64,000 nucleotides of DNA from Flavobacteriaceae bacterium GF1 (GTDB lineage: Bacteria > Bacteroidota > Bacteroidia > Flavobacteriales > Flavobacteriaceae), in the NCBI GenBank assembly GCA_009797885.1, contig WNKP01000001.1, forward strand, positions 744,001-808,000, written 5' to 3'. Position 1 is the stretch's first letter; every line of letters begins with the position of its first letter. The notes under the pieces are model-generated. The model had not been told where the DNA came from. It did no database searches and was given only the letters and a program-made list of their open reading frames with translations. This document shows, one piece after another, positions 1-13,379 of this stretch. Position numbers and translations under genes: made by a program.

Positions 1-44
1 TCGGCTTCGCTCGGCATAAACTTCTCGCCCGGTCTTTGTTGCAC

Positions 45-74
45 AAAAAAAGCTACAACTATCGTTGCAGCTTT
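45..74 (-). terminator. Rho-independent terminator left of the element
   Basis: A 9-bp stem (51-59 with 64-72, one mismatch, 4-nt loop) is followed on the minus strand by a run of seven T (45-51). It lies just past the duplicated tRNA 3' end at 86-98, in the same arrangement as the hairpin that follows the intact tRNA at 10195-10238. I infer it is the original chromosomal terminator of the tRNA gene, displaced by insertion of the element. Confidence 0.6.
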
Positions 75-85
75 TCCACCACTTC

Positions 86-98
86 GTGGTCCCACCTG
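86..98. repeat. Left attachment site (attL), 13-bp copy of tRNA 3' end
   Basis: The 13 bases GTGGTCCCACCTG are identical and in the same orientation to 10245-10257, which is the 3' acceptor/T-arm end of the CAT tRNA gene (minus strand). The match is short, but it sits 160 bp from an integrase gene and is followed outward by a terminator, as expected for the distal junction of a tRNA-integrated element. Confidence 0.6.
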
Positions 99-221
99 AA
101 CAAAATGGGACTATTTCTTAATATCCTTAACTCAACCTAAATAGCTATTAAACCCTTTATATATAGGCAATTTACAAAAACAAAATAGAAATTAAATATA
201 AATAAGGTTAAATAAACATAT

Positions 222-239
222 TAAATGTACGTACATTTA
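222..239. promoter_or_regulatory. 18-bp perfect palindrome upstream of integrase
   Basis: TAAATGTACGTACATTTA is a perfect inverted repeat 19 bp before the integrase start. A related half-site CCGTACAAAT follows at 241-250. It could be an operator controlling the integrase, or an arm site for recombinase or excisionase. This is an inference from position and symmetry only. Confidence 0.4.
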
Positions 240-258
240 TCCGTACAAATTTCCTCAT

Positions 259-1524
259 TTGGCAACAATATCATTTAAAATACGATCCGGTAGGAAGGAG
301 CAAAAACCTATTTATCTCATATTTAGCTATGGTAGGGGTAATGAGTTGCGTTATTCTACCGGCTGGAAAGTTCAAAATGAAAAAAACTGGGACAAAGCAA
401 AGCAGCGAGTCAAAAATGTTGTTTCCGAGCCAAGGTCTATGCCCATAAATGAAGAAATAAATAAACTTGAAGTGTTTTTTTTGGACAAATATTTTGAGCT
501 TAAGAAATCCAATATTGAAATCACCAATAATTCTCTGCGGAATGAACTGGACATATATTTAAAGAAAAAAAAGTCCAAAAAAAACCTCTCCTCATATAGG
601 AGCTTGCTTGAGTGCTATGAGTTTTACTATGACCATTTTGCCAAGAACCCCCTGCCTACGACCAAATCATCGCTATCTGAAGGCACAGTAAAATCTTATA
701 AAACGTCAATGAAATTAATTCGACAATTTAATGATGAAGAATACGCAATAAATTACGATAGAATCACACTAAGTTTTTACTATGACTATTTAGAGTTTCT
801 GAGAGGAAAGAACTACTCTAACAACTATATTTCCAAGCAAATCAAGAACCTTAAGACCATAATGAACTTTGCATGGGAACACAAATACCACAACAACCTG
901 GAATTTAAACTAAAGGCTTTCACTAAGATTCCGGAACAAGTAAATCATATATATCTTAACCAAGAGGAAATTTCCAAAATAAATGCACTCTCATTAGATG
1001 GAAACATTGGGTTAGCTCGTGATTTGTTTATTCTCGCCGCCAATACCGGTTTGAGGGTTTCAGATTTCAATCGCCTTACTGAGTCAAACATCAAGGATTA
1101 CCGGGGCAAAAAGTATATAGAGATAGAAACCCGAAAGACTAAATCAATGGTAACCATCCCTATTAATAGTATGGTCAAGGATATTCTAGAAAAATATGGC
1201 GGACATCCCCCGGGATATATGGTTGAACAAAAAATAAACTTATATCTCAAAACCATCGGTTCCAGAGCAGGTTTAAAAGAAAAAGTCAAAATCAAAAAGA
1301 CAATTGGAGGAAAAACCGATATTAAAGAGTATAGCAAATATGATTTAATCACATGCCATACAGCTCGGAGGTCATTTTGCACAAACGCTTATAAATCAGG
1401 AATGCCTACTTTAGATATAATGGCCATTAGTGGCCATAAAACTGAGCGTTCTTTCTACAATTACATTAAAATAGGTGATTTAGAGAGATTGGAAAAAATA
1501 TCTGAACATCCATTTTTTAACTGA
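259..1524 (+). CDS. Tyrosine recombinase / site-specific integrase
   Basis: A 421-aa site-specific recombinase of the Bacteroidota phage-integrase type. It has an N-terminal arm-binding domain (residues 1-90, beginning MATISFKIRSGRKEQ), a SAM-like core-binding domain (about 105-215) and a C-terminal catalytic domain. Visible catalytic residues are R266 (TGLRVSDF), the H367-x-x-R370 box (CHTARRSF), H393 (ISGHKTE) and the nucleophile, probably Y402 (FYNYIK). A lysine in ETRKTKS fits the beta-hairpin Lys. The start is TTG at 259, because no ATG fits and the domain begins there. It lies 160 bp from the left attachment repeat and reads inward, as expected for the integrase of the tRNA-inserted element. 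All catalytic residues are present, so it should be active. Confidence 0.95.
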   Translation: MATISFKIRSGRKEQKPIYLIFSYGRGNELRYSTGWKVQNEKNWDKAKQRVKNVVSEPRSMPINEEINKLEVFFLDKYFELKKSNIEITNNSLRNELDIYLKKKKSKKNLSSYRSLLECYEFYYDHFAKNPLPTTKSSLSEGTVKSYKTSMKLIRQFNDEEYAINYDRITLSFYYDYLEFLRGKNYSNNYISKQIKNLKTIMNFAWEHKYHNNLEFKLKAFTKIPEQVNHIYLNQEEISKINALSLDGNIGLARDLFILAANTGLRVSDFNRLTESNIKDYRGKKYIEIETRKTKSMVTIPINSMVKDILEKYGGHPPGYMVEQKINLYLKTIGSRAGLKEKVKIKKTIGGKTDIKEYSKYDLITCHTARRSFCTNAYKSGMPTLDIMAISGHKTERSFYNYIKIGDLERLEKISEHPFFN

Positions 1525-1535
1525 CCAAACTATTT

Positions 1536-2546
1536 ATGATTCTCTTTAATCGTTTGGAAGCCTTAATTACTGACATGGAAGAAGAGATATCTTCTTTGGC
1601 AAAAATCAAGCAGGAGTTCTCACTCCGGTCATTGAACATAGATATTAACCTAGACGTTTCAAAAAAAGAACAGACGAAATTACTTCAGCTGGAGCATAAA
1701 ATGAAAGTCGAAAAAAATGGTGTTTTGCTCTGGAATCAGGATTACAAAAAAGAAACTATCCAGGCTACCTACTTTTTGGTTCTTGCGGATGTTATTTCAA
1801 AGGTCCAACTTCTTGCCGCAAAACTGAAAACTTGCTTGGAAACTTACTCTGAAAAGCAATTAAAAAAGAAGATAAAATCCGAACTTAAAAAGCTAACGCA
1901 CATCATTGAATCTCATGACGGACAAATGTTTTACAATGAGGGTTACAGAAAACAGAAAAACAACCTTCTTAAAACAAGATTTGAGGTCATTTGGAATATC
2001 AATGAACAATTTTCGCTGTTTCCATTACTGAAGAGAGACAAAAAAGCAACAATCCTCACAAGTGCTGAGTACCCATTCATTTCTTTTGACATTGATCAAT
2101 GGATTAATCTTGAGCTGGCTTATAGGCTCATTCCAGTATTAAAAAGTGAGACCGCTACTGACGAAAATAAAATTAACCTTGTTCAAATAGAAAAGTGTCC
2201 TTTTTCCGTTGAAACACATATTTTCAATAGTAATGGTGAGGATATTCTATTCACAATTTTAAAAAGGTCTGGAAACATTTCTTACCAGAAAGGTTGTGGA
2301 ATTGAAAAAACAAGTGGTTTTAGAGGTGGTTGTAATTATTTGTTTGATATTCTTAAACGTCCCTCTATCGGCGTTTTAAAAGACATATATAAGAAGGAAT
2401 TTGTGCAATATTTGAATATAGAAAAAGGATACAATGCCAAAATCAAAGACCTATCTAAAATAGCCAATGAAAACACAACGTTAAATGCCTCTAACAGGAT
2501 TGATAAGGAACTACTACTGCTGTATCCAAAAATCATCTTAGACTAA
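1536..2546 (+). CDS. Unknown protein of the integrative element (336 aa)
   Basis: I do not recognise a family. The protein is lysine-rich and soluble. Residues 1-130 are mostly predicted helix, with charged heptad-like stretches (for example EKQLKKKIKSELKKL). The C-terminal part has two cysteines near GFRGGC and ends KIILD. There is no signal peptide or membrane segment. It starts 11 bp after the integrase stop and is probably co-transcribed with it. In elements of this class the gene after the integrase is often an accessory or regulatory gene, but nothing in the sequence proves that here. Confidence 0.75.
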   Translation: MILFNRLEALITDMEEEISSLAKIKQEFSLRSLNIDINLDVSKKEQTKLLQLEHKMKVEKNGVLLWNQDYKKETIQATYFLVLADVISKVQLLAAKLKTCLETYSEKQLKKKIKSELKKLTHIIESHDGQMFYNEGYRKQKNNLLKTRFEVIWNINEQFSLFPLLKRDKKATILTSAEYPFISFDIDQWINLELAYRLIPVLKSETATDENKINLVQIEKCPFSVETHIFNSNGEDILFTILKRSGNISYQKGCGIEKTSGFRGGCNYLFDILKRPSIGVLKDIYKKEFVQYLNIEKGYNAKIKDLSKIANENTTLNASNRIDKELLLLYPKIILD

Positions 2547-2636
2547 CTATTCCGAATTATTTCTGAATTATTCCCGAATCAATCCGAACTAAAAAAAGGG
2601 TTGAATGAACTCATTTTTGCTAAAAAAACAACAAAA

Positions 2637-2918
2637 ATGGAACGAATAACAACAGAAGTTCACAGAATTAGCCCTGAAGCATTAACTGAAAAAATAATAG
2701 ATGGTGTAAGCCAACAATTAGCAGAATTTGAGAAAAAAATAAACTCAAAAAAACAATCAAAATATATTGATAGAAAAGAAACCTCTAGAAGATTAGGGGT
2801 AGGTTACGCCACATTAAATTCTTGGGATAAAAAAGGAATATTAAAGAAGCGAAAAATTGGAAATCGGGTGTTATATCTCGTTTCTGAAATCGAAGAAATA
2901 TTAGAGTCCTCTAAATAA
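2637..2918 (+). CDS. Helix-turn-helix protein, excisionase-like
   Basis: A 93-aa protein with a C-terminal MerR/excisionase-type winged HTH (about residues 45-90). Recognisable parts are RKETSRRLGVGYATLNSWDKKG, split as helix-turn-recognition helix, then the wing KKRKIGNRVLYLVSEIEEIL. This is the HTH_17 pattern used by recombination directionality factors and small regulators of Bacteroidota elements. The ATG at 2637 is preferred over an in-frame TTG at 2601 because it is preceded by an A-rich stretch typical of this phylum. It is followed by a terminator-like hairpin at 2923, so the integrase-side operon probably ends here. Likely role: excision factor or regulator of the element. Confidence 0.8.
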   Translation: MERITTEVHRISPEALTEKIIDGVSQQLAEFEKKINSKKQSKYIDRKETSRRLGVGYATLNSWDKKGILKKRKIGNRVLYLVSEIEEILESSK

Positions 2919-2922
2919 GAAA

Positions 2923-2957
2923 GGGAATAGCGCCAACTATTCCCCTATTAAATTTTT
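2923..2957 (+). terminator. Rho-independent terminator after HTH gene
   Basis: A perfect 8-bp stem GGGAATAG/CTATTCCC (2923-2930 with 2937-2944) with a 6-nt loop is followed by a T-rich tract (TTAAATTTTTCC). It separates the integrase-HTH block from the primase block. Confidence 0.7.
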
Positions 2958-2977
2958 CCTGTAATAAATCAAAAATA

Positions 2978-3127
2978 ATGATACGAATATACCCACATCA
3001 CGGGATATATAAAAATTCCCTCATAAGGTTAAACCGACCGGCTTCAGCTAAAGAGCTGATTAAATCCATTTCTGACCGCATCAGGATTCAAATGCTTATT
3101 CAACAAGGTGTAAATTCCAAAAATTGA
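2978..3127 (+). CDS. Small ORF (49 aa) before primase block
   Basis: ATG at 2978 opens a 49-codon frame, MIRIYPHHGIYKNSLIRLN..., ending with TGA at 3125-3127. That is 5 bp before the ATG at 3133 of the next gene, so the two may be translationally coupled. The product is basic, with no membrane segment, and ends in an amphipathic helix (SAKELIKSISDRIRIQ). I do not recognise it. Its position between a terminator and two overlapping genes supports a real gene, but length alone does not. Confidence 0.5.
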   Translation: MIRIYPHHGIYKNSLIRLNRPASAKELIKSISDRIRIQMLIQQGVNSKN

Positions 3128-3132
3128 CAGCA

Positions 3133-3675
3133 ATGGATTTTAACGACGCCGCTAAACGTCTCATTTGGAGGTTTCAGAATTTTGATACAATCAGAGTGAA
3201 TGAATCGGACATTCTGGCCATCAACAAAATGGTTGATTTTATCAATCTAAGACAAAAACAAGACTTTGCCAATCACAAGTATTTGATCAATTTGTATGCT
3301 TTTCTCCTGGGCTATTTTATAAAAAAATACAACACCACAATCTCTAATCCTTTGCCCCATTCAGAACTTCACAAATTAATGAAAAGGCCACTGGATCATA
3401 TCATCAAAGAAATTGCCGAAGACATGAATTTTCGCTTGAAATATCAACTATTGGAAAACGCTGGAGTTCGCCTAGGTACGCATCCCAGTTTGTTGACTGA
3501 AGAAGAAAAAGAGAATAACGTTAAAAACATCGGAAAACTACTTGAGCTAGGCAATAATTATAATTTCTTTTTTCAAGATGCATGGAGTCCAAAGGAAATA
3601 AAAGAAGGTGTATTCCATCAAATTCAAAACCTGCTTTATGGAGTTCAAAAAAGTGACAAAAACACAGGAAAATAA
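3133..3675 (+). CDS. Unknown protein upstream of VirE primase (180 aa)
   Basis: An acidic-to-neutral, mainly helical soluble protein with no recognised domain. A hydrophobic stretch, YLINLYAFLLGYFIKKY (about residues 48-65), is more likely a buried helix than a membrane anchor. The 3' end overlaps the start of the VirE gene by 38 bp in another frame, which indicates coupled expression. The start is ATG at 3133; a TTG at 3124 is possible. A gene of this size often precedes virE in flavobacterial elements, and I infer an accessory role in element replication, without direct evidence. Confidence 0.7.
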   Translation: MDFNDAAKRLIWRFQNFDTIRVNESDILAINKMVDFINLRQKQDFANHKYLINLYAFLLGYFIKKYNTTISNPLPHSELHKLMKRPLDHIIKEIAEDMNFRLKYQLLENAGVRLGTHPSLLTEEEKENNVKNIGKLLELGNNYNFFFQDAWSPKEIKEGVFHQIQNLLYGVQKSDKNTGK

Positions 3676-4852
3676 TAAACCCGAAGAGCAGGGAAACACT
3701 ATTTTCCACCAAGTTGAGGATTATCTAGAAAATAACTACGATATACGCTACAATAAAATCTCCTTGGACATTGAAATATCTCTAAAAGAGCATAATAATT
3801 GGAAAATTGCCAATGAGAATAGCCTTTACATAGAACTTAGAAAGAAAAACATTGCAGTATCAATGAACAATCTTTTGGCCGTTCTTAAAAGTGACTTTAT
3901 TCCCAATTATAATCCTCTAAAGAACTATTTCAACTCACTGCCCAAATGGAATAATTCTGTCGACTACATAAAAAAGTATGCCAGTTATATCAATTTATCA
4001 CCAGGTGAGAATGTTGAACAGTTCCATTATCACTTTAAAAAGTGGTGTGTCAGAGCGGTTAAGTGTGTTCTTATAGACGGTTACTTCAACAAACAGGCCT
4101 TTATTCTTACTGATGATGGCAAGGGGCAGAATATTGGCAAATCTACTTGGTGTAGGAACCTATGTCCAAAAAGCTTATCGAACTATATTGCCGAAGACAT
4201 GGGGGGTTCAGACAAAGATTCCCGGTTATTACTTTGCAAAAATTTCCTAATAAACCTTGATGAACTTGCGGCCTTGGCCAAAAAGGAAATAAACCAACTA
4301 AAATCCCAGCTTTCAAAAGACCAAATTAATGAACGTTTGCCCTACGATAGGAAAAATTCTGTAATTCAAAGGGTTGCTTCTTTTATCGGATCCACCAATA
4401 AATCAACTTTTTTACAAGATGAAACCGGTAGCGTCCGATGGTTATGTTTTGTAGTAGAGTCCATAGATTTTGCATATAACAAAGAATTCAATATAGATAA
4501 TCTTTGGTCTCAGGCATATGCCTTAAGTATTGATAGTGCATATGATGAAACTATTTCCAGAAAGGACATTCTTGAAAATGAAATAAGAAATAAAAAATTT
4601 CAAGATTTGACCCCTGAACACGAACTGCTTTTAAGACATTTCAGGAAGCCTATGTTAAAATCATCCGAGGAATGGCTTAGCAGCACCGACATTGTAGATT
4701 ATCTTATGACCAATGGATATACTAGACTTTCGCTTCGTCCTGTTAATATGGGAAAAGCTTTGGCACAAGAAAGCTTCATTAAGAAGAAAACTAAAGGGTC
4801 CACGGTTTATAGCGTAGAAAAGAAATTAAATGAGTATTCTGAAGAAAAATAA
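3638..4852 (+). CDS. VirE/VapE-family primase-helicase
   Basis: A 404-aa P-loop NTPase of the virulence-associated E family, found in phages, satellites and integrative elements, where it serves in replication of the element. The N-terminal part (to about residue 100) contains NYNPLKNYFNSLPKWN, the usual VirE lead-in. Walker A is G161-K-G-Q-N-I-G-K-S-T170. The Walker B region is FLINLDELA, with Asp-Glu. A sensor-like motif follows in IGSTNKSTFLQDETGSVRW. The C-terminal 90 residues resemble a winged-helix tail. The separate N-terminal primase domain of long family members is absent, so it is a short form. ATG 3638 is chosen over GTG 3608. It is followed by 576 bp of non-coding DNA with iteron-like repeats. 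Confidence 0.9.
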   Translation: MEFKKVTKTQENNKPEEQGNTIFHQVEDYLENNYDIRYNKISLDIEISLKEHNNWKIANENSLYIELRKKNIAVSMNNLLAVLKSDFIPNYNPLKNYFNSLPKWNNSVDYIKKYASYINLSPGENVEQFHYHFKKWCVRAVKCVLIDGYFNKQAFILTDDGKGQNIGKSTWCRNLCPKSLSNYIAEDMGGSDKDSRLLLCKNFLINLDELAALAKKEINQLKSQLSKDQINERLPYDRKNSVIQRVASFIGSTNKSTFLQDETGSVRWLCFVVESIDFAYNKEFNIDNLWSQAYALSIDSAYDETISRKDILENEIRNKKFQDLTPEHELLLRHFRKPMLKSSEEWLSSTDIVDYLMTNGYTRLSLRPVNMGKALAQESFIKKKTKGSTVYSVEKKLNEYSEEK

Positions 4853-4868
4853 ACAACTTATCAAAATT

Positions 4869-5077
4869 ACCCTCCCTTCTCTCCTTTTCTCTTTAAAGCA
4901 TTATGGTTATTAAAGTTGTTCAGGGAGGGTCTATTTAAAAGAACCCTCCCTCAAGTTACCTACCCTCCCTGAAATACAACCATCAGGAGAGGGCACCTTC
5001 CCTTTTCCGACTTTACCTCCCCTATCAAAACCTTTACAAATAAAGGGATCTGGCAAAAGAGGGAGAGAAGGGAGGGT
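4869..5077. repeat. Five copies of 9-mer ACCCTCCCT, iteron-like
   Basis: The 9-mer occurs at 4869-4877, 4943-4951 and 4962-4970 on the plus strand and, inverted, at 4922-4930 and 5069-5077. Copies 4922 and 4943 form a perfect 9-bp hairpin with a 12-nt AT-rich loop. The whole gap 4853-5428 has no convincing gene, only frames of 63 codons or fewer, and it directly follows the replication-type VirE gene. I infer an origin of replication or a transfer/packaging site, by analogy with islands whose origin lies just after the rep gene. Confidence 0.5.
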
Positions 5078-5428
5078 GAAAAATGGAAAAACTTTCAAAG
5101 TACCAAATTTTCAATAGAAAAAGTAGTTGAAGGAATGTGGGAAGTTGTTGTGGGACAAACAACAAGATATGCGGAATGCGGTTTGTTCTAATCACCAAGA
5201 CAAATGTATGATTAAAGTTATACAAAAACCCCGGAAAAACTAAGGTTTTCCTTCAGTTCAATTTTTACAAAAAATCATAATTTTCACTATCTCCCCAAAA
5301 CGACTTACCGTCTCTTTAAAACACTGGAAACTACTGTGTGTTGAAGAGCTGGTACTAGTCTGCCATTAAAAAGAAAATATGATTAAACGAAGAATTTGTA
5401 ATCTAAGGATTATGTTATAATTGAAGAT

Positions 5429-7183
5429 ATGTTTAAAAATCCTATTACTAGCGAAGCTGAAGAGTTGGGACCCAAAAAACCGAGACTTAAGAAATTAATT
5501 ATTAAAAATTTTAGAAGTATTGGCGAAGAAGGTGTAGAAATAGACCTTGATGAAATAGTTGTGCTTGTAGGTCCTAACAATGTTGGAAAAAGTTCAATTT
5601 TAAGAGCCTATGAACTGGTAATGCTAGGTGATAATAAAGCCGCAATGTTAACCATTGAGGACTTTCCAAATAGACAGACTATCAATCATCCTATTATAGA
5701 ACTTTATACTGTGGTTTATGACAATAGCCCTGGTGAAAAGTGGATTATTGATGATAACGGAGAAAAGTTAGTAAAGGAACGATGGACTTGGAATTCTCCC
5801 AACGTTAGACCAATCAGATTTGGTTGGCTAGCACGGGAAAATAGATGGGCTACTAGCGAAGACAAACAAAAAGTTCCATGGGGAGCAGCTAATATTGCAA
5901 AATCAAAACGGCCTGAGCCACATAGAGTAAGTGCCTTCGATTCTCCAGAAGAACAGGGTAAAGAAATTGTAAAACTCCTTAAGTCCTATCTGACGGATAA
6001 GGTCAAGGAATTTACTGCCGATGGGGAAGAGGAAACCGATGAACAATTGGAATACAAACAGCTTATTAAATCAGTCAAAAAACTTCAAAATAAAATAGTT
6101 GAGAAGTCCCAGAATGAAATAGAAGAAATTGAGAAGGATCTAACCGAATTGATTTCTAAAGTTTTTCCAGGATACAGTATTAAGTTTGACGCTAAACCTG
6201 AAAATGAAATTGACAAAGCAATTACGTGGTTCAAAGAGCAACCAGACCTTTTGATGGGGCCAAAATCTGGTTACCAGAGCACTATAGATAGGCAAGGAAG
6301 CGGGGCCAGGCGCACACTACTTTGGACTGCTTTAAGACTTATTAGCGAACATAAAGCAAAAGAGGGGAAACCGCATTTATTACTTATAGATGAGCCAGAA
6401 ATTTGTTTACACCCCAATGCAACAAGGGCAGCTAGAGAGGTTTTGTACGATTTGCCAAAAGCAGGTAATTGGCAAGTAATGCTAACAACTCATTCCCCTA
6501 TTTTCATCGACATATCAAAGGATAACACAACCATAATTAGAGTTCAAAAGTCTGATGGAGGGAGAGTCAGGGCGACAACCATCTATAGGCCAGATAAAGC
6601 AAATTTAACAGAAGATGATAGGCTTAATTTGAAACTCATGAACATATATGACCCATATTTTGCTGAATTCTTTTTTGGAGGACGGACTATAATAGTTGAA
6701 GGAGATACTGAGTATTCAGCTTTCAATTATGTAAAAAGTGTAAATGACTCATTGAATGACATCCACATAATTAGAGCAAGAGGTAAAGCTTCAATTGTTA
6801 CTGTAATCAAAATATTGAATCAATTTGGCGTAAATTATTCAGTATTGCATGATACAGATAAACCAAAAGCTGTAAGAAAAGATGGTAGCGAAATTACCAA
6901 TCCAGCTTGGACAAACAATAAAAAGATTTTGTCTGCTGTCAATGAAAAGGACAGTAGTGTTACTATTAGACTTGTTGCTTCTAAAGGTAGTTTTGAAGAC
7001 GCCTATCTTGACAGTCAGTTGAGTGGTGATAAGCCATACAATGCTCTCAATGAAATGGTTAAACAAGAAAGTTCTTTCAAAGAAATATCTACATTATTAG
7101 ATGCTCTTATAAACTTTGAAAAGGATTTGCCAGGTGGGGCCATAGAATGGTCAAGTATTTCTGATTTAGAAAAATTGTTTTAA
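5429..7183 (+). CDS. OLD-family ATP-dependent nuclease (ATPase-TOPRIM)
   Basis: A 584-aa protein of the overcoming-lysogenization-defect family: an ABC-type ATPase fused to a TOPRIM nuclease, known from phage and plasmid defence. Visible motifs are Walker A G48-PNNVGKS-S55, a long inserted helical arm (about 165-260, KLQNKIVEKSQNEIEEIEKDL), the signature region RQGSGARRTLLW, Walker B LLLIDEPE with D321-E322, and switch H355 in TTHSP. TOPRIM has E424 in IVEGDTE and D475-x-D477 in LHDTDK. All key residues are intact. It is followed after 4 bp by the DUF2130 gene, so the two are surely one operon. No UvrD-like helicase is adjacent, so it is not a Gabija pair. It is likely a class 1 OLD or part of an unnamed two-gene system. 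Confidence 0.92.
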   Translation: MFKNPITSEAEELGPKKPRLKKLIIKNFRSIGEEGVEIDLDEIVVLVGPNNVGKSSILRAYELVMLGDNKAAMLTIEDFPNRQTINHPIIELYTVVYDNSPGEKWIIDDNGEKLVKERWTWNSPNVRPIRFGWLARENRWATSEDKQKVPWGAANIAKSKRPEPHRVSAFDSPEEQGKEIVKLLKSYLTDKVKEFTADGEEETDEQLEYKQLIKSVKKLQNKIVEKSQNEIEEIEKDLTELISKVFPGYSIKFDAKPENEIDKAITWFKEQPDLLMGPKSGYQSTIDRQGSGARRTLLWTALRLISEHKAKEGKPHLLLIDEPEICLHPNATRAAREVLYDLPKAGNWQVMLTTHSPIFIDISKDNTTIIRVQKSDGGRVRATTIYRPDKANLTEDDRLNLKLMNIYDPYFAEFFFGGRTIIVEGDTEYSAFNYVKSVNDSLNDIHIIRARGKASIVTVIKILNQFGVNYSVLHDTDKPKAVRKDGSEITNPAWTNNKKILSAVNEKDSSVTIRLVASKGSFEDAYLDSQLSGDKPYNALNEMVKQESSFKEISTLLDALINFEKDLPGGAIEWSSISDLEKLF

Positions 7184-7187
7184 TGAC

Positions 7188-8444
7188 ATGAATGATTCTG
7201 CTCAAATAAAATGCCCAAACTGTGGAACCTCCATTGATGTTCAAGATATTTTAGCTCATCAGTTAGAAGATGAAATCAAACAAAAGTATCAAGCCAAGTT
7301 AGCCGATGAGAAAAAGAAATATGAAGCTGAACAAGAGAAGCTTGACAAGGCTATGCGGGAATTTGAAGAAAAGAAGAAACAGCAAAATGAGTTGTTCCAA
7401 GAACGCTTGGAAAAACAATTAAAGGAAGACAGAAAACTTATCACAGAAAAAGTCAAGGCTAAACTTACTGAAGAACAATCTGAACAGTTTCTAGCTCTAC
7501 AAAAAGAACTGAATGAAAAATCTGAGCAGGTGAAAGAGTTGAACCGTTCGAAGGCTGAAATTGAAAAACTAAAGCGTGAAAAATCCGAATTAAAAGAGGC
7601 TGCCGAAGCTGAAGCACAAAAGAAGTTAAATGAAGTACTGCTTTCTGAAAAGGAAAAAATTCGAAAATCAGAAGAAGAAAAAAATGAGTTAAAATTTCGG
7701 GAACTGCAAAAACAACTCGAGGACCAAAAGAAGTTAACCGAAGAAATGAAGCGTAAGCAAGAACAAGGCTCCATGCAGCTTCAAGGCGAGGTACAAGAAT
7801 TAGCGATTGAAGAATGGCTGGCTACTCAATTTCCGTTGGACAGTATAGATGAAATAAAAAAAGGTGCTAGAGGAGCAGACTGTATCCAAGTGGTAAATAC
7901 CCGAAGCCGTCAAAATTGTGGTAAAATCTATTATGAAAGTAAACGTACCAAAGATTTTCATGGCAGTTGGATAGAAAAATTTAAGACAGACATGCGCGAA
8001 CGAGATGCTGACATCGGTGTACTGGTCACCGAAGTAATGCCTTCCGGTTTTGACCGAATGGGGATGATGGAAGGTGTTTGGGTATGCACCTACGAAGAGT
8101 TCAAAGGTCTTTCAGCTGTACTGAGAGAATCGATTATCCAATTAAGCCTCGCCATGACCACACAAGAAAACAAGGGAGATAAAATGGGAATGCTCTATGA
8201 TTTCTTGACCAGCACAACGTTTCGCATGCAAATAGAGGCCATAGTCGAGGGGTTCTCCCAGATGAAATCAGATTTGGAAAGTGAAAAACGTTCTATGCAA
8301 CGCATTTGGAAACAAAGAGAGCGTCAAATTGAAAAAGTCATAACAAATACCATTGATATGTATGGCTCTATCAAGGGAATAGCAGGAAATGCCATTCAAT
8401 CGGTTAAGGCTCTAGAGCTTCCTCCCGGAGAAGATGAAGCTTAA
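7188..8444 (+). CDS. DUF2130 protein: zinc ribbon, coiled coil, PD-(D/E)XK-like nuclease
   Basis: A 418-aa protein. Residues 9-12 hold CPNC of a zinc-ribbon-like start. Residues 30-195 are an almost continuous, highly charged coiled coil rich in Lys, Glu and Gln. Residues 205-320 form the DUF2130 domain, with G-A-R-G-A-D231 and E250-S-K252 in YYESKRTK, which match the D...ExK pattern of PD-(D/E)XK nucleases. A second helical part follows to the C-terminus. The gene begins 4 bp after the OLD stop codon, indicating a tightly coupled two-gene unit in the element cargo. The coiled coil could serve as a dimerising arm or scaffold with the OLD ATPase. The nuclease activity is inferred from the motif. 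Confidence 0.88.
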   Translation: MNDSAQIKCPNCGTSIDVQDILAHQLEDEIKQKYQAKLADEKKKYEAEQEKLDKAMREFEEKKKQQNELFQERLEKQLKEDRKLITEKVKAKLTEEQSEQFLALQKELNEKSEQVKELNRSKAEIEKLKREKSELKEAAEAEAQKKLNEVLLSEKEKIRKSEEEKNELKFRELQKQLEDQKKLTEEMKRKQEQGSMQLQGEVQELAIEEWLATQFPLDSIDEIKKGARGADCIQVVNTRSRQNCGKIYYESKRTKDFHGSWIEKFKTDMRERDADIGVLVTEVMPSGFDRMGMMEGVWVCTYEEFKGLSAVLRESIIQLSLAMTTQENKGDKMGMLYDFLTSTTFRMQIEAIVEGFSQMKSDLESEKRSMQRIWKQRERQIEKVITNTIDMYGSIKGIAGNAIQSVKALELPPGEDEA

Positions 8445-8515
8445 GAATATATTCGTGTTCAAAAGCTTAAAAAGGGATTCAGAACGGAAAATTTATAATA
8501 TTCAACTAGGGTATA

Positions 8516-9004
8516 ATGGGCGATTGTTTTCCAGATGTTTGTGACTGCACTTGTAATCAACCTTACAATGAGTTTGAAAGTATAATTTCCAAAGAAATAT
8601 CTTTTCCATTTAGTTTCGATGAATTGTGTCATAGTAACATTGGGTGGTTTACCGACGAAAAAATATGTAATGATCATCATTTAAATGATTGGATTGATGC
8701 TTCGTGCTATGGTATTTACCTTTTATGGCACAAAGACGATTATTGTGCTACGCATAATATGTTTCACATGAAAGGCCTATATGTGGGAAAAGGGAACATA
8801 AAAAATCGTATTATCTCTCATTTTAAAAAAAAGGATTTTAGTAATGAGATGATTGTATATTTTACTTTTATTGAAATGATTAATCGACGGGCAAAATTCT
8901 TAGAGCAATTGCTATTGGACCATTTCAATTTTCCGTTCAATAAAAATGAGAACAATGGTAAGAAAAAGCTTTGCTCATATTTTTCTCAAATCGAAGTTGA
9001 CTAA
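8516..9004 (+). CDS. GIY-YIG domain protein (162 aa)
   Basis: The N-terminal 60 residues are acidic with an unusual run of cysteines (CFPDVCDCTC). The rest has the order of a GIY-YIG nuclease: CYGIYLLW (GIY strand), GLYVGKG (YIG strand), NRIISHF (Arg and His), E at RRAKFLEQLL, and FPFNK with the terminal Asn. This makes catalytic competence plausible. It lies 71 bp after the DUF2130 gene, in the same direction, inside the element. It could be a third member of the cargo module or an independent selfish nuclease. It is not closely similar to the 79-aa GIY-YIG protein at 10319-10558. Confidence 0.75.
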   Translation: MGDCFPDVCDCTCNQPYNEFESIISKEISFPFSFDELCHSNIGWFTDEKICNDHHLNDWIDASCYGIYLLWHKDDYCATHNMFHMKGLYVGKGNIKNRIISHFKKKDFSNEMIVYFTFIEMINRRAKFLEQLLLDHFNFPFNKNENNGKKKLCSYFSQIEVD

Positions 9005-9030
9005 AGTTTAAATAAAAGATTAACACTAGC

Positions 9031-9447
9031 ATGGAAAATTTTGATGTTGATAATAGTCTAAACCCGAAACTGGTTAGAGGAGCAATTATTTATCATGAAG
9101 GTTCTCTATATCAAGTTAAGGATATGGATAAAGAAAAGATTTACATTTCAAATCAAGAAGTAGATAGTAAAGCAATAGCCGATAATGAGTGGAATCCGGT
9201 AGATTTGACCGAGGATTGGCTTAATCATTTTAACTTTGAAGTTGGTTCTAAAATTCATAATGTTAATACCAAGCAAGATTGGATTATAAAAACTACTGGC
9301 AACTACTATTATATTACAGTTTTTGTTAGTCCTCCTTATGGTGATAATCCGGTAATTGGATTAAAATATGTCCATGATTTACAAGCATGGTTTTTTACGT
9401 TAACAAAGCGAGATTTGGGTTATTTTGGTTTTAATCAACCAAAATAG
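9031..9447 (+). CDS. Small phage/element-type protein (138 aa)
   Basis: The C-terminal half shows the pattern LTEDWLNHFNF ... LKYVHDLQAWFFTLTKRDL, which is characteristic of a small protein recurrent in Bacteroidota phages and mobile elements (usually YVHQLQNLYFALTGEEL at the end). The N-terminal half, with GAIIYHEGSLYQVKDMDKEKIYI, looks like a small beta-barrel fold. No enzymatic motif is seen. It starts 26 bp after the GIY-YIG gene and is the last plus-strand gene of the element. Confidence 0.7.
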   Translation: MENFDVDNSLNPKLVRGAIIYHEGSLYQVKDMDKEKIYISNQEVDSKAIADNEWNPVDLTEDWLNHFNFEVGSKIHNVNTKQDWIIKTTGNYYYITVFVSPPYGDNPVIGLKYVHDLQAWFFTLTKRDLGYFGFNQPK

Positions 9448-9561
9448 TTCAAGAAAAGGATGTAAGAAATGAATATCCAAAAACTTATCCCTTGATTTTA
9501 GAAAGAATGACCAATCGTTTACAAAAAAATCTCTGTTATAGAAAAGTGCAAATGAAGAATA

Positions 9562-9696
9562 GTGGTAATATTTATAGCCGCTATAAAATTACCACATTCT
9601 TTACCCCCCACAACAGCAGTTAAAACCCAAAAATGGATGCCTTTATAGTGGTTAGACAACTGTAAAAACAACCATAGCGACTATAAATTATACCAC
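9562..9696. repeat. Inverted and direct repeats near right end of element
   Basis: GTGGTAATATTTATAG (9562-9577) and CTATAAAATTACCAC (9581-9595) form a near-perfect hairpin. A second copy of the right arm, CTATAAATTATACCAC, lies at 9681-9696, and a shorter form CTTTATAGTGGTTA lies at 9641-9654. The gene-free stretch 9448-9852 otherwise holds only a 27-codon frame from 9726. The repeats may be arm sites for the recombinase or a nicking/transfer site. Confidence 0.4.
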
Positions 9697-9852
9697 ATTA
9701 CAATTGTTTTTCATAGTTTTATCAATGAAAAGCACTTTCGATATACTTAACGATGTGGAGTTGGATTTTTTAGAATCATCCCTCGGGTGTCGAAGGTGTT
9801 TTTTCTAAGTCTTAGTCAATTACTACATCAAGACAATTCTCTGATAAATCTT

Positions 9853-10098
9853 TCAGAGATTGTAATCTTCTTCAAAATTATACCTCTTTTGCATAGTATT
9901 ACAAAACTCTTTTTCATTTTTGATTTTTGCCAGGAGCTTAGCTTTTTTCTTTTTCTTGGCTTTTTTTGATAATTCAGGATCCAGTTCAATAATCTGGACT
10001 CTTGCCTTATTCAATTCCATCTTCAATTGACTAATGTTTAGCCATGTTTCAACTCTAAATTCATCAAACAATTCAAACCTCGGGATTCTTACCTCCAT
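9853..10098 (-). CDS. Small charged protein near element right end (81 aa)
   Basis: A frame of 81 codons begins MEVRIPRFELFDEF and contains a lysine run (SKKAKKKKKAKLLAKIKNEKEF). No family is recognised. The AT-rich upstream sequence and ATG start are typical of this phylum. It reads against the other element genes, toward the left, and lies 147 bp inside the right junction. Low-complexity coding makes it uncertain, and the overlapping plus-strand frame (9787-9969) is less convincing. Confidence 0.4.
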   Translation of the reverse strand: MEVRIPRFELFDEFRVETWLNISQLKMELNKARVQIIELDPELSKKAKKKKKAKLLAKIKNEKEFCNTMQKRYNFEEDYNL

Positions 10099-10194
10099 TC
10101 GTAATTAATTTAAATTAAACTTTTTGATTCTTAAAAAAGGACTCTAATCGAAGAGTTTTCTGCAAAGTATTCGTTCAAAATAACGTACAAAAAC

Positions 10195-10238
10195 AAAAAA
10201 ATCCTTACAACTCACTGATATTCAGATTGTTGTAAGGA
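10195..10238 (-). terminator. Terminator of the CAT tRNA gene
   Basis: A perfect 10-bp stem (10202-10211 with 10229-10238) is followed on the minus strand by a run of seven T (10195-10201). It lies 7 bp past the tRNA 3' end, on the element side of the junction, so the element appears to supply a new terminator to the tRNA it occupies. Confidence 0.75.
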
Positions 10239-10244
10239 TTAAAG

Positions 10245-10257
10245 GTGGTCCCACCTG
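10245..10257. repeat. Right attachment site (attR) in tRNA 3' end
   Basis: This 13-bp segment spans the 3' acceptor strand and part of the T-arm of the tRNA gene and is identical to 86-98. Because the tRNA remains complete here, the crossover must fall inside or at the edge of this repeat. Confidence 0.6.
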
Positions 10258-10319
10258 GGCTCGAACCAGGGACCAACTGATTATGAGTCAGCTACTCTAA
10301 CCAACTGAGCTATAGGACC
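10246..10319 (-). tRNA. tRNA with CAT anticodon (Met, or Ile2 with lysidine)
   Basis: A 74-nt cloverleaf without encoded CCA. The acceptor GGTCCTA pairs with TGGGACC, the D-arm is GCTC...GAGT, the anticodon stem is GCTGA/TCAGT with loop CTCATAA (anticodon CAT), the T-arm is CCTGG/CCAGG with TTCGAGC, and the discriminator is A. The anticodon alone cannot separate elongator Met from Ile2 (lysidine-modified C). The general shape fits either. The 3' end is the attachment site of the 10-kb element. The first base is also the last base of the stop codon of the GIY-YIG gene upstream. Confidence 0.92.
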
Positions 10320-10558
10320 TAGTTGTGTTTATTCTTTAACCACTGCTTGCCGTACCCCGATTTAAGGTACTTCTCTCGTTTTCTCGCAGTGGGTCGATCA
10401 GGATATTCCTCGACATAAATCAATTGCCAGGGGCGATATCCTTTTGTACTTCTTGTTTTTCCTCTGTTATGTTCTTTAAGCCTCTTCTCAACATTTTGGG
10501 TCAACCCAACATAGAGCCTATTGTCAATCTCGCTTTTAAGAACGTAAACAAAAACCAT
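10319..10558 (-). CDS. Small GIY-YIG nuclease inserted in a tRNA locus
   Basis: A 79-aa single-domain protein of the short GIY-YIG group abundant in Bacteroidota. It has FVYVLKS (GIY strand), LYVGLT (YIG strand), Arg and His in EKRLKEHNRGK, and Glu with a basic tail in ARKREKYLKSGYGKQWLK. It lies between a broken tRNA 5' half (10573-10662) and the intact tRNA (10246-10319). Its TAG stop shares one base with the tRNA 5' nucleotide, so gene and tRNA seem to be a single transcription unit. This arrangement suggests a homing-like element that carries a replacement 5' tRNA half to keep the host tRNA working. Catalysis and mobility are inferred. Confidence 0.88.
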   Translation of the reverse strand: MVFVYVLKSEIDNRLYVGLTQNVEKRLKEHNRGKTRSTKGYRPWQLIYVEEYPDRPTARKREKYLKSGYGKQWLKNKHN

Positions 10559-10572
10559 TTTCTTAAATGAAC

Positions 10573-10662
10573 GTCAGCTACTCCCTGCCTGCCGTTACCC
10601 TGCCGGCCTGCGGCCAGTAGGCGGGCGCCAGGTAGGCCGGTAACCAACTGAGCTATAGGACC
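10573..10662 (-). pseudogene. Broken 5' half of the CAT tRNA gene, split by a repeat
   Basis: Reading the minus strand, 10662-10641 equals the first 22 bases of the intact tRNA (GGTCCTATAGCTCAGTTGGT plus TA). After a 57-bp insert, 10583-10573 continues with GAGTAGCTGAC, up to the anticodon loop. Similarity stops there, replaced by the leader of the GIY-YIG gene. So the original tRNA was cut in the anticodon loop and its 5' half duplicated. The left-over half was later interrupted in the D-loop by a palindromic repeat. Confidence 0.85.
10584..10640. repeat. 57-bp GC-rich REP-like insertion inside tRNA remnant
   Basis: The insert starts CCTGCCTGCC and ends GGTAGGCCGG, with internal self-complementary blocks (GGCCTGCGGCC region). 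It exactly interrupts the tRNA fragment between GTCAGCTACTC and TAACCAACTG. It resembles the CCTGCC...GGCAGG palindromes at 27813 and 51310. Confidence 0.75.
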
Positions 10663-10774
10663 GTTGTTAATGGATAATTGATAATTTCCAAAAATCAACT
10701 ATCCGTATTTCAATATTTCCTTCTCCTCATCCCCTATTACCAAACGTTATGCGCTATAGTGGCGTAGAGGGACG

Positions 10775-10805
10775 CAAAATTACTATTTATTTTCCGCTAC
10801 CACAA
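10775..10805 (-). promoter_or_regulatory. Promoter of the tRNA / GIY-YIG unit
   Basis: On the minus strand a TTG (10803-10805) is followed after 20 nt by TAATTTTG (10775-10782), matching the Bacteroidota consensus TTG-N19-TAnnTTTG. It reads toward the broken tRNA half, the GIY-YIG gene and the intact tRNA, with no other promoter-like pair closer. The rest of the 314-bp gap 10699-11012 holds no gene that I can see. Confidence 0.6.
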
Positions 10806-11012
10806 TACCATAGATCCTATTCTTGGCTGTTACCCGGGCAGAACCCCAATGTCAAATTAATGTTATATTCTGCATTAACGTAGTATGGGTTGGTAAGCTA
10901 CCTTACTTTCAATTATATTAGACTTTTTTCTAGAAGGCCATTTGAACTATTGGGTAATACGATGACCCTTAAAATTTGAGTCCTGCTTTTGGACAGTGTG
11001 TAAACAGACCAG

Positions 11013-13379
11013 ATGATTTCGAAAAATATTAAACTCCCCCCCAGGCATATTTATCCTTTGGATGATTGGAGGTTTGTCCAAAAAAAATATTCACCCCAAT
11101 ATCTGGCCCAGGATGAAACCGTTTTTGCCATTGCAAACGGCTATCTTGGTTTTCGGGGCAATCATGAGGAAGGAACGCCTGTGGTGCAACGGGGAACCTT
11201 TATCAACGGATTTCATGAACAATGGCCCATCCGTTATGGGGAATCTGCCTATGGGTTTGCCAAAACGGGCCAAACCATGCTGAATGTTACCGATAGCAAA
11301 GTAATTAGGCTCTATGTGGATGACGAGCCATTTTACCTTCCTACTGCCGATCTTAAATCCTATGAACGGGTACTCGATATGAAAGCCGGTACCCTGAATC
11401 GGGATATTCTTTGGGAAACCGCTTCTGGCAAACGCGTTTCCATCCGCTCTACCCGAATCGTTTCTATGGAACACCGGCATGTTGCCGCCATTTCCTATGA
11501 GGTGACGGTGCTGAATGCCCCGGCCAAACTCATCATCTCCTCTAAATTACGTTGCCCCACGGAGAAACTTAATCCTCAGGAGGATAAGGAGGACCCGAGA
11601 AAATCCCCCAAATTCGACCATAGTGTTTTTGTACCACAGGTGAGTCAGGTTAAAGACCAGAGGGTGCTTTTAGGGCATCAGATCCGTACCAGTGGTATGA
11701 CGCTGGCCTGTGGCGTAGATCATGAGATTCAAACGGAGAATACCTATTCCTACAAAAGCGAGTGTTATGAGGATTCCGCCAAAATCGTTTATTCGCTAAA
11801 AGCAGAGGAGGGAGTGCCCTTTCGGATGATAAAATACATGGTGTACCACAGTTCTCGAAATGCGCCCGTTGTTGAACTTTGCGAACGTACCGAACGAACA
11901 CTGGACTCCGTGACAGAAGACGGTTTTGAAGAATTGACCGAGGGCCAGCAGCGCTTTATGGATAATTTTTGGACCAATAGCGATATTGAAGTTTCCATGT
12001 ATAGGGACCGGAGAACGCAGCAATGCCTCCGCTTTAATCTATTCCATATCCTTCAGGCCTCCGCTCGTGTGGAAGGTACAGGGATCGGGGCCAGGGGTCT
12101 TACCGGAGAAGCCTATGAAGGTCATTATTTCTGGGACACCGAGATTTACCTGATGCCCTTTTTGATCTATACCTCGCCAAAAGTGGCCAAAAACCTTCTG
12201 CGTTTCCGATACAGCCTTCTGGATAAAGCACGCAAACGTGCCAGGGAACTTAATCAGAAAGGGGCGCTCTTTCCATGGAGAACCATTACCGGAGATGAAG
12301 CTTCTGCTTTTTTTGCCGCTGGAACCGCACAATATCATATCAATGCGGATATCATGTACGCCTTGAGAAAATACGTTGAGGTAACCGGCGATGAGGATTT
12401 TCTGTTTGAATACGGAGCTGAAATGCTGATCGAAACGGCACGCTTCTGGGCCGATTTGGGCTTCTATTCAACTAACGGAAAGGACCAGTTTCATATCCAT
12501 GGTGTCACGGGGCCCGATGAATATACCGCCATTGTGAACAACAATGCCTTTACCAATATAATGGCCCGTGAAAATCTGCGGTACGCCGTGGAGAGTCTGG
12601 AGTTACTTCGGAAAAAGGCACCGGACAGCTTTGAGGGCCTGGCAAAGGATACCGATCTTGGCCTGGAAGAGATCGAAGAATGGAGAAATGCCGCAGCCAA
12701 AATGTATATCCCATACGATGAAGAAAAAGGAATTCACCCACAGGATGATGAATTCCTGAAAAAGGAAGTCTGGGATTTTGAAAATACCCCTTTGGAAAAC
12801 TATCCTTTGCTGCTCCACTACCATCCCCTGGTCATCTACCGCTTTCAGGTCATCAAACAGGCCGATGTAGTCATGGCCATGTTTCTTTTGGGCCATGAAT
12901 TTTCGAAGGAACAAAAGAAAAAGAATTTCGACTACTACGATCCCCTAACTACAGGAGACTCCTCATTGTCTTCCTGCGTATACAGTATCCTGGCATTTGA
13001 ACTGGGGTATCTGGATAGGGCCATGGAGCTGATCAAGTATGCCGCCTGGATGGATCTGGCCGATGTAGGGGGAAATGTGAAGGATGGGGCCCATATCGCT
13101 TCCATGGGCGGCACATGGATGGCTATCGTATATGGTTTGGCCGGCTTGCGCGATTATGGGGGTAAGATCAGCTTTAATCCCAAAAGCCCTCCCCGGACCC
13201 GAGCGGTGCGCTTCCCTTTAACGGTTCGTGGTAAACTCCTGGAGGTGATGATCCAAAGGGACAAGGTGACCTATACGTTAAAAAAAGGCAAGGCCCTTAC
13301 CATTCATCACGGGGCGGAAGAAATAAAACTTAGCGAAAAGCAGCCCTCCTGCATTAAGGAGTTGGGCGATACGAATTGA
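11013..13379 (+). CDS. Glycoside hydrolase family 65 phosphorylase
   Basis: A 788-aa cytoplasmic enzyme of the family that phosphorolyses alpha-linked disaccharides (maltose, trehalose, kojibiose and nigerose types). It has the three family parts: an N-terminal beta-sandwich (about 1-270, DETVFAIANGYLGFRGNHEEG), the central (alpha/alpha)6 barrel (about 330-690; ARGLTGEAYEGHYFWDTEIY, FPWRTITGDE) and a C-terminal beta domain. The general acid is E503 in VTGPDEYTA. The phosphate-binding site probably includes the GGTWMAIVYGLAG region. No signal peptide. The usual partner, beta-phosphoglucomutase, is not adjacent, so substrate specificity cannot be assigned from context. It stands alone between the tRNA locus and mce. 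Confidence 0.93.
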   Translation: MISKNIKLPPRHIYPLDDWRFVQKKYSPQYLAQDETVFAIANGYLGFRGNHEEGTPVVQRGTFINGFHEQWPIRYGESAYGFAKTGQTMLNVTDSKVIRLYVDDEPFYLPTADLKSYERVLDMKAGTLNRDILWETASGKRVSIRSTRIVSMEHRHVAAISYEVTVLNAPAKLIISSKLRCPTEKLNPQEDKEDPRKSPKFDHSVFVPQVSQVKDQRVLLGHQIRTSGMTLACGVDHEIQTENTYSYKSECYEDSAKIVYSLKAEEGVPFRMIKYMVYHSSRNAPVVELCERTERTLDSVTEDGFEELTEGQQRFMDNFWTNSDIEVSMYRDRRTQQCLRFNLFHILQASARVEGTGIGARGLTGEAYEGHYFWDTEIYLMPFLIYTSPKVAKNLLRFRYSLLDKARKRARELNQKGALFPWRTITGDEASAFFAAGTAQYHINADIMYALRKYVEVTGDEDFLFEYGAEMLIETARFWADLGFYSTNGKDQFHIHGVTGPDEYTAIVNNNAFTNIMARENLRYAVESLELLRKKAPDSFEGLAKDTDLGLEEIEEWRNAAAKMYIPYDEEKGIHPQDDEFLKKEVWDFENTPLENYPLLLHYHPLVIYRFQVIKQADVVMAMFLLGHEFSKEQKKKNFDYYDPLTTGDSSLSSCVYSILAFELGYLDRAMELIKYAAWMDLADVGGNVKDGAHIASMGGTWMAIVYGLAGLRDYGGKISFNPKSPPRTRAVRFPLTVRGKLLEVMIQRDKVTYTLKKGKALTIHHGAEEIKLSEKQPSCIKELGDTN

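Follow-up and report, generated by a model that had tools for sequence, protein, structure and literature searches.

Group I introns of bacterial tRNA genes are inserted in the anticodon loop. Like the locus described here, they invade tRNA genes, and they may encode homing nucleases (excerpted text of PMC3984707). A second likeness is found in SegB of phage T4, a stand-alone GIY-YIG gene lying among tRNA genes (PMC2988022, in excerpt). Duplicated gene ends are described for the mobile ORFs (mORFs) of fungal mitochondria, in Allomyces atp6 and in Glomus atp6, atp9, cox2 and nad3; there, as in the present case, an endonuclease ORF (GIY-YIG in atp9) parts the displaced native end of the gene from a second, gene-completing end (PMC3630166, in the portion available). 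An engineered parallel is provided by the "home-and-rescue" drives (PMC7968924, likewise in excerpt). Stand-alone GIY-YIG elements of the present kind at bacterial tRNA genes do not appear among the open-access papers listed, and the excerpted text of the 2006 GIY-YIG survey (PMC1564403) makes no mention of a link to tRNA genes.

The locus lies in a 64,000-nucleotide stretch of the genome of Flavobacteriaceae bacterium GF1, referred to below as the window. It is probably a mobile element of ~340 bp, whose lone gene encodes a single-domain GIY-YIG nuclease, and which belongs to a family inserting at tRNA genes with local duplication of the gene end.

Organization of the locus

On the minus strand, nucleotides 1-22 of a tRNA-Met, a 57-nt insert, nucleotides 23-33 of the same tRNA, a leader, the GIY-YIG ORF and an intact tRNA-Met follow one another (Table 1). 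The original prediction had proposed a broken tRNA 5' half ending in the anticodon loop, and the break indeed falls one base into the loop, after nt 33. It was equally accurate in placing a complete tRNA (10319..10244) after a 79-aa GIY-YIG gene (10558..10319) and in noting a base common to the stop codon and the tRNA 5' nucleotide: the last base of the TAG is the first G of the intact tRNA-Met. Its description of the broken half was correct as to the end, and overlooked the 57-nt D-loop insert (10640..10584). This insert separates nt 22 from nt 23 of the broken copy, on the 3' margin of the D-loop, and appears to be a hairpin with a second hairpin nested in its loop; shorter, 30-nt forms occur at the matching junction in three relatives (L019, L046, L049). 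The stability of the window's insert and broken copy is not beyond that of dinucleotide shuffles (z -0.12 and -0.24).

Table 1. Features of the GIY-YIG locus and of the neighbouring integrase-bearing element, in window coordinates unless a contig is named.
Feature	Position	Strand	Remarks
First part of the broken tRNA-Met, nt 1-22 (5' strand of the acceptor stem and 5' side of the D-arm)	10641..10662	-	repeats the intact tRNA exactly over 22 nt
GC-rich D-loop insert of 57 nt within the broken tRNA-Met copy	10584..10640	-	hairpin-like, judging from relatives
Broken tRNA-Met copy, nt 23-33	10573..10583	-	terminates one base inside the anticodon loop
Leader of 14 nt preceding the GIY-YIG start codon	10559..10572	-	
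GIY-YIG nuclease gene, 79 aa	10319..10558	-	catalytic residues conserved; PF01541 E 3.4e-19
Intact tRNA-Met(CAT), surviving copy	10244..10319	-	ARAGORN; Rfam tRNA 68.2 bits
TAnnTTTG-like promoter element, presumed tRNA promoter	10775..10782	-	~113 nt upstream of the broken copy
17-bp tRNA 3' end, att-like repeat of the second, integrase-bearing element	10245..10261	-	second copy at C11:743980-743996
Tyrosine integrase	259-1524		
VapE-like protein	3608-4852		
AAA/OLD-like TOPRIM protein	5429-7183		
DUF2130 protein	7188-8444		
162-aa protein of the integrase-bearing element	8516-9004	+	weak GIY_YIG_2, E 0.0014, below the Pfam cut-off

The broken piece, the gene and the intact tRNA fit a single transcription unit, and we infer that transcription passes through the whole of it. 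Among 95 loci, the TAnnTTTG motif, a promoter motif to which the element at 10782..10775 is similar, is present in the 60 nt preceding the broken copy in 45 and in the gap between gene and tRNA in 4; 67 of 2000 random 60-mers contain it.

As for the class of element, no inverted-repeat pair of at least 14 nt flanks the GIY-YIG gene in the window, as would be required of an insertion sequence. Among the Rfam matches for positions 9500-11500 there is no intron family, and an intact tRNA lies alongside, which does not agree with a group I intron. The element contains a single gene and no integrase, and so does not qualify as a tRNA-integrating element. It resembles a gene-end-duplicating mobile ORF in that the ORF lies between a broken and a whole gene end. 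The neighbour at positions 1-10244, by comparison, does qualify as a tRNA-integrating element. It occupies the 3' end of the same tRNA, measures ~10.27 kb and is bounded by 17-bp repeats of the tRNA 3' end, the outer of which lies 5 bp to the left of the window. The prediction that another element is seated at this 3' end is borne out by the 17-bp copy, 10.27 kb away, and by the tyrosine integrase ORF.

The nuclease and its distribution

The assignment of the protein to the GIY-YIG superfamily is supported by the PF01541 match (3.4e-19) and by retention of the catalytic residues. Across 220 copies, H30 and E62 are invariant, while Y16 is kept in 219 and R26 in 218; the Tyr, Arg and Glu residues presumably fulfil their catalytic roles in the GIY-YIG domain. 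The dN/dS ratios of 0.08-0.28 in eight pairs indicate purifying selection. Among solved structures, the best relatives are UPF0213 and bacterial SLX1-like single-domain GIY-YIG proteins (UPF0213 1ywl, 1.4e-11; SLX1 7wme, 1.1e-6), followed by I-TevI (1mk0, 9e-4), and the PDB search yielded no structure from the protein's own clade.

Relatives were collected from several sources. A GTDB genome scan with the window protein gave 25 loci, 24 of them with a tRNA gene in the fetched stretch; a 28-row alignment, whose members are mostly tRNA-linked, served as the profile for genome searches; and 100 further stretches were picked by hand from the match lists. Within the window's family, this alignment has matches at E 1e-18 in 112 of 397 genomes, and across the phylum in 110 of 395, so the element may be a common small mobile element. 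It is easily overlooked as a "GIY-YIG nuclease family protein" plus stray tRNA debris. Phage and plasmid collections gave 15 and 5 matching records, respectively, all below 60% identity, and the viral contig scan gave three loci. The same layout is found in metagenome-assembled genomes labelled Auribacterota (L061), Deltaproteobacteria (L063) and Giovannonibacteria (L264, by eye), and also, by eye, in one labelled Parcubacteria (L265), where the intact tRNA is lost at a contig end; caution over binning applies to all four.

The main set was defined by a relative scoring at least 80 bits and comprises 169 loci, no two of which have DNA-identical best copies. An intact tRNA lies within 500 bp in 149 of them (20 of 20 loci from the GTDB scan, 129 of 149 from the genome searches), on the same strand in all 149. 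Twenty-one tRNA kinds are represented, most often Leu-CAA (28), Arg-TCG (19), Met (18), Ala-GGC (13) and Asn (11). Tandem arrays of two to five copies of at least 80 bits are present at 34 of the 169 loci. In the protein tree, built from 76 columns and with 88 of 166 inner branches unresolved and 6 strongly supported, the 169 proteins group by target: 52 target changes are counted, against a mean of 122 after shuffling, and none of 200 shuffles is as low.

Geometry of the broken and intact copies

The geometry was analyzed in 152 tRNA-linked loci (at least 60 bits), with the tRNA filed downstream of the gene in 102 (5'-type) and upstream in 50 (3'-type). Broken pieces that extend to the expected end of the tRNA are present in 95 of 102 and 41 of 50 loci, respectively. 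Counting only pieces beyond the gene gives 95 of 102 and 38 of 50; that is, the gene separates an intact from a broken copy in 133 of 152 loci, and the proposed search for broken halves beside short GIY-YIG genes has a positive outcome. Any fragment of the linked tRNA is detected in 140 of the 152, compared with 3 for the shuffled tRNA and 6 for its reverse complement. The mirrored layout, with the 3' part of the tRNA duplicated, exists as well. As anticipated, a working tRNA is left in place, the intact gene standing beside the broken copy.

Broken pieces differ from their intact partners at 197 of 7019 aligned bases (2.8%). At informative positions, defined as those where the resident tRNA differs from most loci of its kind (kinds with at least four loci, one piece per locus), the letter of the broken copy is that of the resident tRNA in 430 of 450 cases and that of the majority in 12. 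In 66 of 95 5'-type loci the inner end of the piece lies within the anticodon loop or the 5' strand of its stem, in agreement with the inner break predicted near or within the anticodon arm; the inner ends of 3'-type pieces are more scattered, 20 of 41 lying after this arm. The stop codon of the ORF overlaps the tRNA in 64 of 102 loci. The shared sequence extends into the flank beyond the tRNA in 17 of 93 5'-type and 19 of 41 3'-type loci, some of which are tandem arrays or remnants of earlier copies (L120).

Nineteen of the 152 loci have no scored broken copy beyond the gene, namely seven of the 5'-type and twelve of the 3'-type, eight of these twelve at tRNA-Asn. One of the twelve, L103, is misclassified through overlap, and its broken copies lie upstream. 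A short broken copy is visible by eye in six of the seven 5'-type loci (L020, L087, L088, L116, L123, L124), and in L258 none is found by score or by eye. The 3'-type loci devoid of any scored broken copy are L064, L195, L209 and six at tRNA-Asn. The original prediction named a gene present without a duplicated half as evidence against it; such cases are a minority, among them six of the ten 3'-type tRNA-Asn loci. Two more of these ten hold a fragment that does not lie beyond the gene. In the six tRNA-Asn loci with the gene downstream and no scored broken copy (L139, L144, L149, L150, L151, L156), the spacer shows GTAGAGC..GCTCAC-like motifs.

As a control, 26 tRNA genes were inspected in 26 loci of the same genus that lack a close relative of the GIY-YIG gene, and 11 fragments were flagged within 600 bp: four broken copies with hairpins and no GIY-YIG gene, one fragment at L179, four att-like 3' repeats and two weak chance matches. 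The four GIY-less units (L177, L178, L190, L191) consist of a broken 5' piece of tRNA-Asn or tRNA-Phe with a hairpin, 83-119 bp before the intact tRNA; the spacer of L177 encodes REKFKKY in one frame, a possible ORF remnant. A half predating the gene was the other finding expected to count against the original prediction, and the existence of these GIY-less broken halves answers to it in a minority of cases; we read them as possible deletion derivatives. The GIY-YIG gene at L179 is divergent, scoring ~29 bits against the window protein, but displays the same mirrored layout at tRNA-Asn, and the layout habit may therefore extend beyond the clade of the window protein. The same layout also occurs at tRNA-Leu-GAG (L036, L043). 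At L161, an intact tRNA is followed by broken 3' pieces in tandem that bear a palindrome in the T-loop, and the stretch covered contains no GIY-YIG gene.

Hairpin inserts in the broken copies

An insert of 15-70 nt is present in the expected-side piece at 120 of 136 loci (93 of 95 5'-type, 27 of 41 3'-type). The insertion sites are located preferentially outside the cloverleaf helices, in 67 of 79 distinct combinations of tRNA kind and junction against 48.4 expected (P 5e-6). The placement of the L057 insert at junction 28 is an alignment artefact, the junction being 32 by eye. The inserts are mostly self-complementary, a statement which refers to the whole set and not to the window's own insert: for 147 distinct inserts, the median z is -2.8 relative to mononucleotide shuffles, and 99 lie below -2. 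Terminal inverted repeats are found in 81 of 145 inserts as opposed to 1.2% of shuffles, but pairing the ends of two different inserts also gives a match in 25%, since the inserts have sequence in common.

Several palindromes that do not resemble one another are found repeatedly at the same broken-tRNA junctions. The commonest is found at 25 places in one genome (G345), at 19 in G404, 17 in G199 and 15 in G005. An origin of the insert as a resident repeat of the window's genome was considered and rejected: the commonest family palindrome has no match there with up to two mismatches, and for the insert of the window itself the genome contains a single further match, weak and 22 nt long. We read the inserts as functional or strongly site-directed, any particular role being conjectural. 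Separately, a distant GIY-YIG gene at L068 is flanked by a palindrome resembling GTCATTTCGAA..GAAATCTC, which we take to be a common repeat of the phylum.

Occupied and empty sites

Comparison of tRNA loci among related genomes, which had been suggested as a check, reveals occupied, remnant and empty sites. The full Met-type element is present in 3 of 11 congeneric genomes (G000, G004 and G005; in G005 a contig end truncates it close to the 3' end of the tRNA), and in a further one (G007) a decayed remnant is left, the ORF core being deleted. The sister genome G006 (locus L171) carries the exact empty site of the window, with flanks 95% identical over 1298 aligned bases to the junction and a net insertion of 343 bp. 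This pair is equally compatible with gain and with loss. It shows no duplication of shared upstream flank; the duplication in the window stops at tRNA nt 1, and the window alone is consequently uninformative on local copying. Over the 72 to 76 nt matched, the intact tRNA-Met is 100% identical in each of the 11 genomes of the genus that were searched, occupied or empty; a recoding of the intact tRNA to escape cutting was rejected on this ground.

A second pair, from another genus, is more telling. The occupied tRNA-Leu locus L210 matches its empty allele L274 at 500 of 512 positions before and 559 of 586 after a 361-bp insertion, with no base lost. Two copies of the host terminator in L210 agree over ~32 nt and share three differences from L274, so that the insertion looks younger than the split. 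This suggests a recent gain with local duplication of the host's tRNA end and terminator, although gene conversion could also keep both copies alike. The duplication of a host-specific flank in L210, together with the 430 of 450 resident letters, points to local duplication. At L153, the congeneric empty loci have other terminators and are hence uninformative on local copying. The empty sites in G006 (for the window) and L274 (for L210) show that some relatives carry the element at a fixed site which in others is precisely empty, as is expected of a free-standing homing endonuclease. With these empty sites and its recurrence in relatives, the predicted small GIY-YIG mobile element at a tRNA gene is supported.

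In one alternative, an empty tRNA gene is cut and then repaired from an occupied allele, the broken half, the gene and a ready-made 5' half being copied as a unit. The family does resemble free-standing GIY-YIG homing nucleases, its protein lineages are target-specific, the tRNA itself could serve as homology arms, and the window has no shared upstream flank. We nevertheless regard this route as rather unlikely, given the flank beyond the tRNA that is shared in part of the loci (arrays and remnants among them), the local copying in L210 and the letters that follow the resident tRNA, although conversion could explain the last. The outline of "homing and rescue" in the original prediction is retained, with the rescuing part in the clearest case (L210) copied locally and not carried. 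That the element brings its own 5' half finds no support as a general rule, since the duplication in L210 includes the host terminator and the broken copies overwhelmingly carry resident letters. The window's own duplicated half may have come from a donor or from the local gene.

The GIY-less broken copies with hairpins could also be taken to mean that the whole arrangement is a by-product, in which a tRNA is duplicated in tandem, one copy decays, and hairpin repeats and a GIY-YIG gene gather in the spare DNA. The regular position of the gene between the copies, the target-specific protein clades, the mere 2.8% mismatch of the broken copies, and the exact empty allele and recent gain of the L210/L274 pair all argue against such a history, which we judge very improbable. 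Insertion with local end duplication remains the preferred reading.

Targets other than tRNA genes

In 20 of the 169 loci, ARAGORN detects no tRNA within 500 bp. At L241, the target is a tmRNA gene, with its 3' end duplicated and an insert in the T-loop. Damaged or unrecognised tRNA pieces are visible by eye in L127, L152, L204, L213, L242, L243 and L253, and Rfam detects a tRNA in L127 and L213. Six loci (L141, L143, L147, L154, L157, L251), which form one group on the tree (support 90), hold a relative between a duplicated 5' piece and a whole sugar-nucleotide epimerase/dehydratase-like gene, as judged by eye; they read as the same plan with a protein gene as the putative target. Another six relatives (L231, L233, L234, L237, L246, L249) lie in or near other genes; inverted repeats such as CCCCGTTA...TAACGGGG flank members of this group, at least L237 and L246. 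These two are inside apparent tyrosine recombinase genes, with the inverted repeats terminal and no duplication, and look like minimal transposons.

This variety of hosts bears on the possibility that the gene is a resident helper, i.e., a host nuclease gene co-transcribed with tRNAs and active in their processing or quality control. Same-strand linkage without exception, the frequent overlap of stop codon and tRNA, and purifying selection are what such a gene would display. The distribution is, however, patchy even within the genus; the hosts comprise many tRNA kinds, a tmRNA and protein genes; and tandem arrays and damaged copies occur. A housekeeping role of this type accordingly has very little probability in our estimation.

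Proposed mechanism and significance

In the preferred model of local end duplication, insertion would break the tRNA at one point (after nt 33 in the window), and the stretch from the break outwards, to or past the nearer tRNA end, would be duplicated. One copy would remain with the old flank as the broken piece and the other would complete the intact tRNA across the gene, the duplication itself rescuing the tRNA. The tRNA's own promoter would then drive the broken piece, the nuclease gene and the intact tRNA. Insertion is likely triggered by the nuclease, the protein cutting the tRNA gene and repair at the cut yielding the duplication, and the hairpins may shield the broken copy from cutting or from recombination with the intact one. 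The tandem arrays suggest recutting or unequal exchange. Some observations count against the model: the intact tRNA is unchanged by insertion, so that recutting would be expected; 19 of the 152 loci lack a scored broken copy; GIY-less copies exist; and L237 and L246 show no duplication.

A broader proposal, to which we assign slightly less than even chances, is that the family represents a new class of minimal bacterial transposable element, in which a GIY-YIG domain of 75-80 residues would be the sole enzyme, structured RNA genes would be targeted, duplications of tens of bases to ~80 would restore the tRNA, and the discarded copy would be marked by hairpins in the cloverleaf loops; the family would then be a natural counterpart of the engineered home-and-rescue drives. 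If the model of local end duplication is correct, an essential tRNA gene can harbour a selfish gene and the host survives, the target end being duplicated upon insertion.

Comparison with known systems

Within the literature listed, the nearest published idea is the fungal mitochondrial mORF with a duplicated gene end, as far as the available portion of PMC3630166 describes it. The mORFs reside in mitochondrial protein genes, and their inserted C-terminal end is thought to be donor-derived (PMC3630166), whereas the present family occupies bacterial tRNA genes, acts at either end, appears locally copied in the clearest case and bears hairpins in the discarded copy. SegB, unlike this family, lies in an intergenic region of phage tRNA genes, and the excerpted text of PMC2988022 mentions no broken tRNA half. 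Small GC-rich palindromes comparable to the hairpin inserts are known as REP/REPIN sequences (PMC3116915, PMC3733652, both in excerpt) and as mitochondrial double-hairpin elements; in contrast to REP/REPIN, the several unlike palindromes of this family recur at the same broken-tRNA junctions beside a GIY-YIG gene. Finally, group I introns restore the tRNA by RNA splicing (PMC3984707, in its excerpted text), whereas the present family would do so by DNA duplication.
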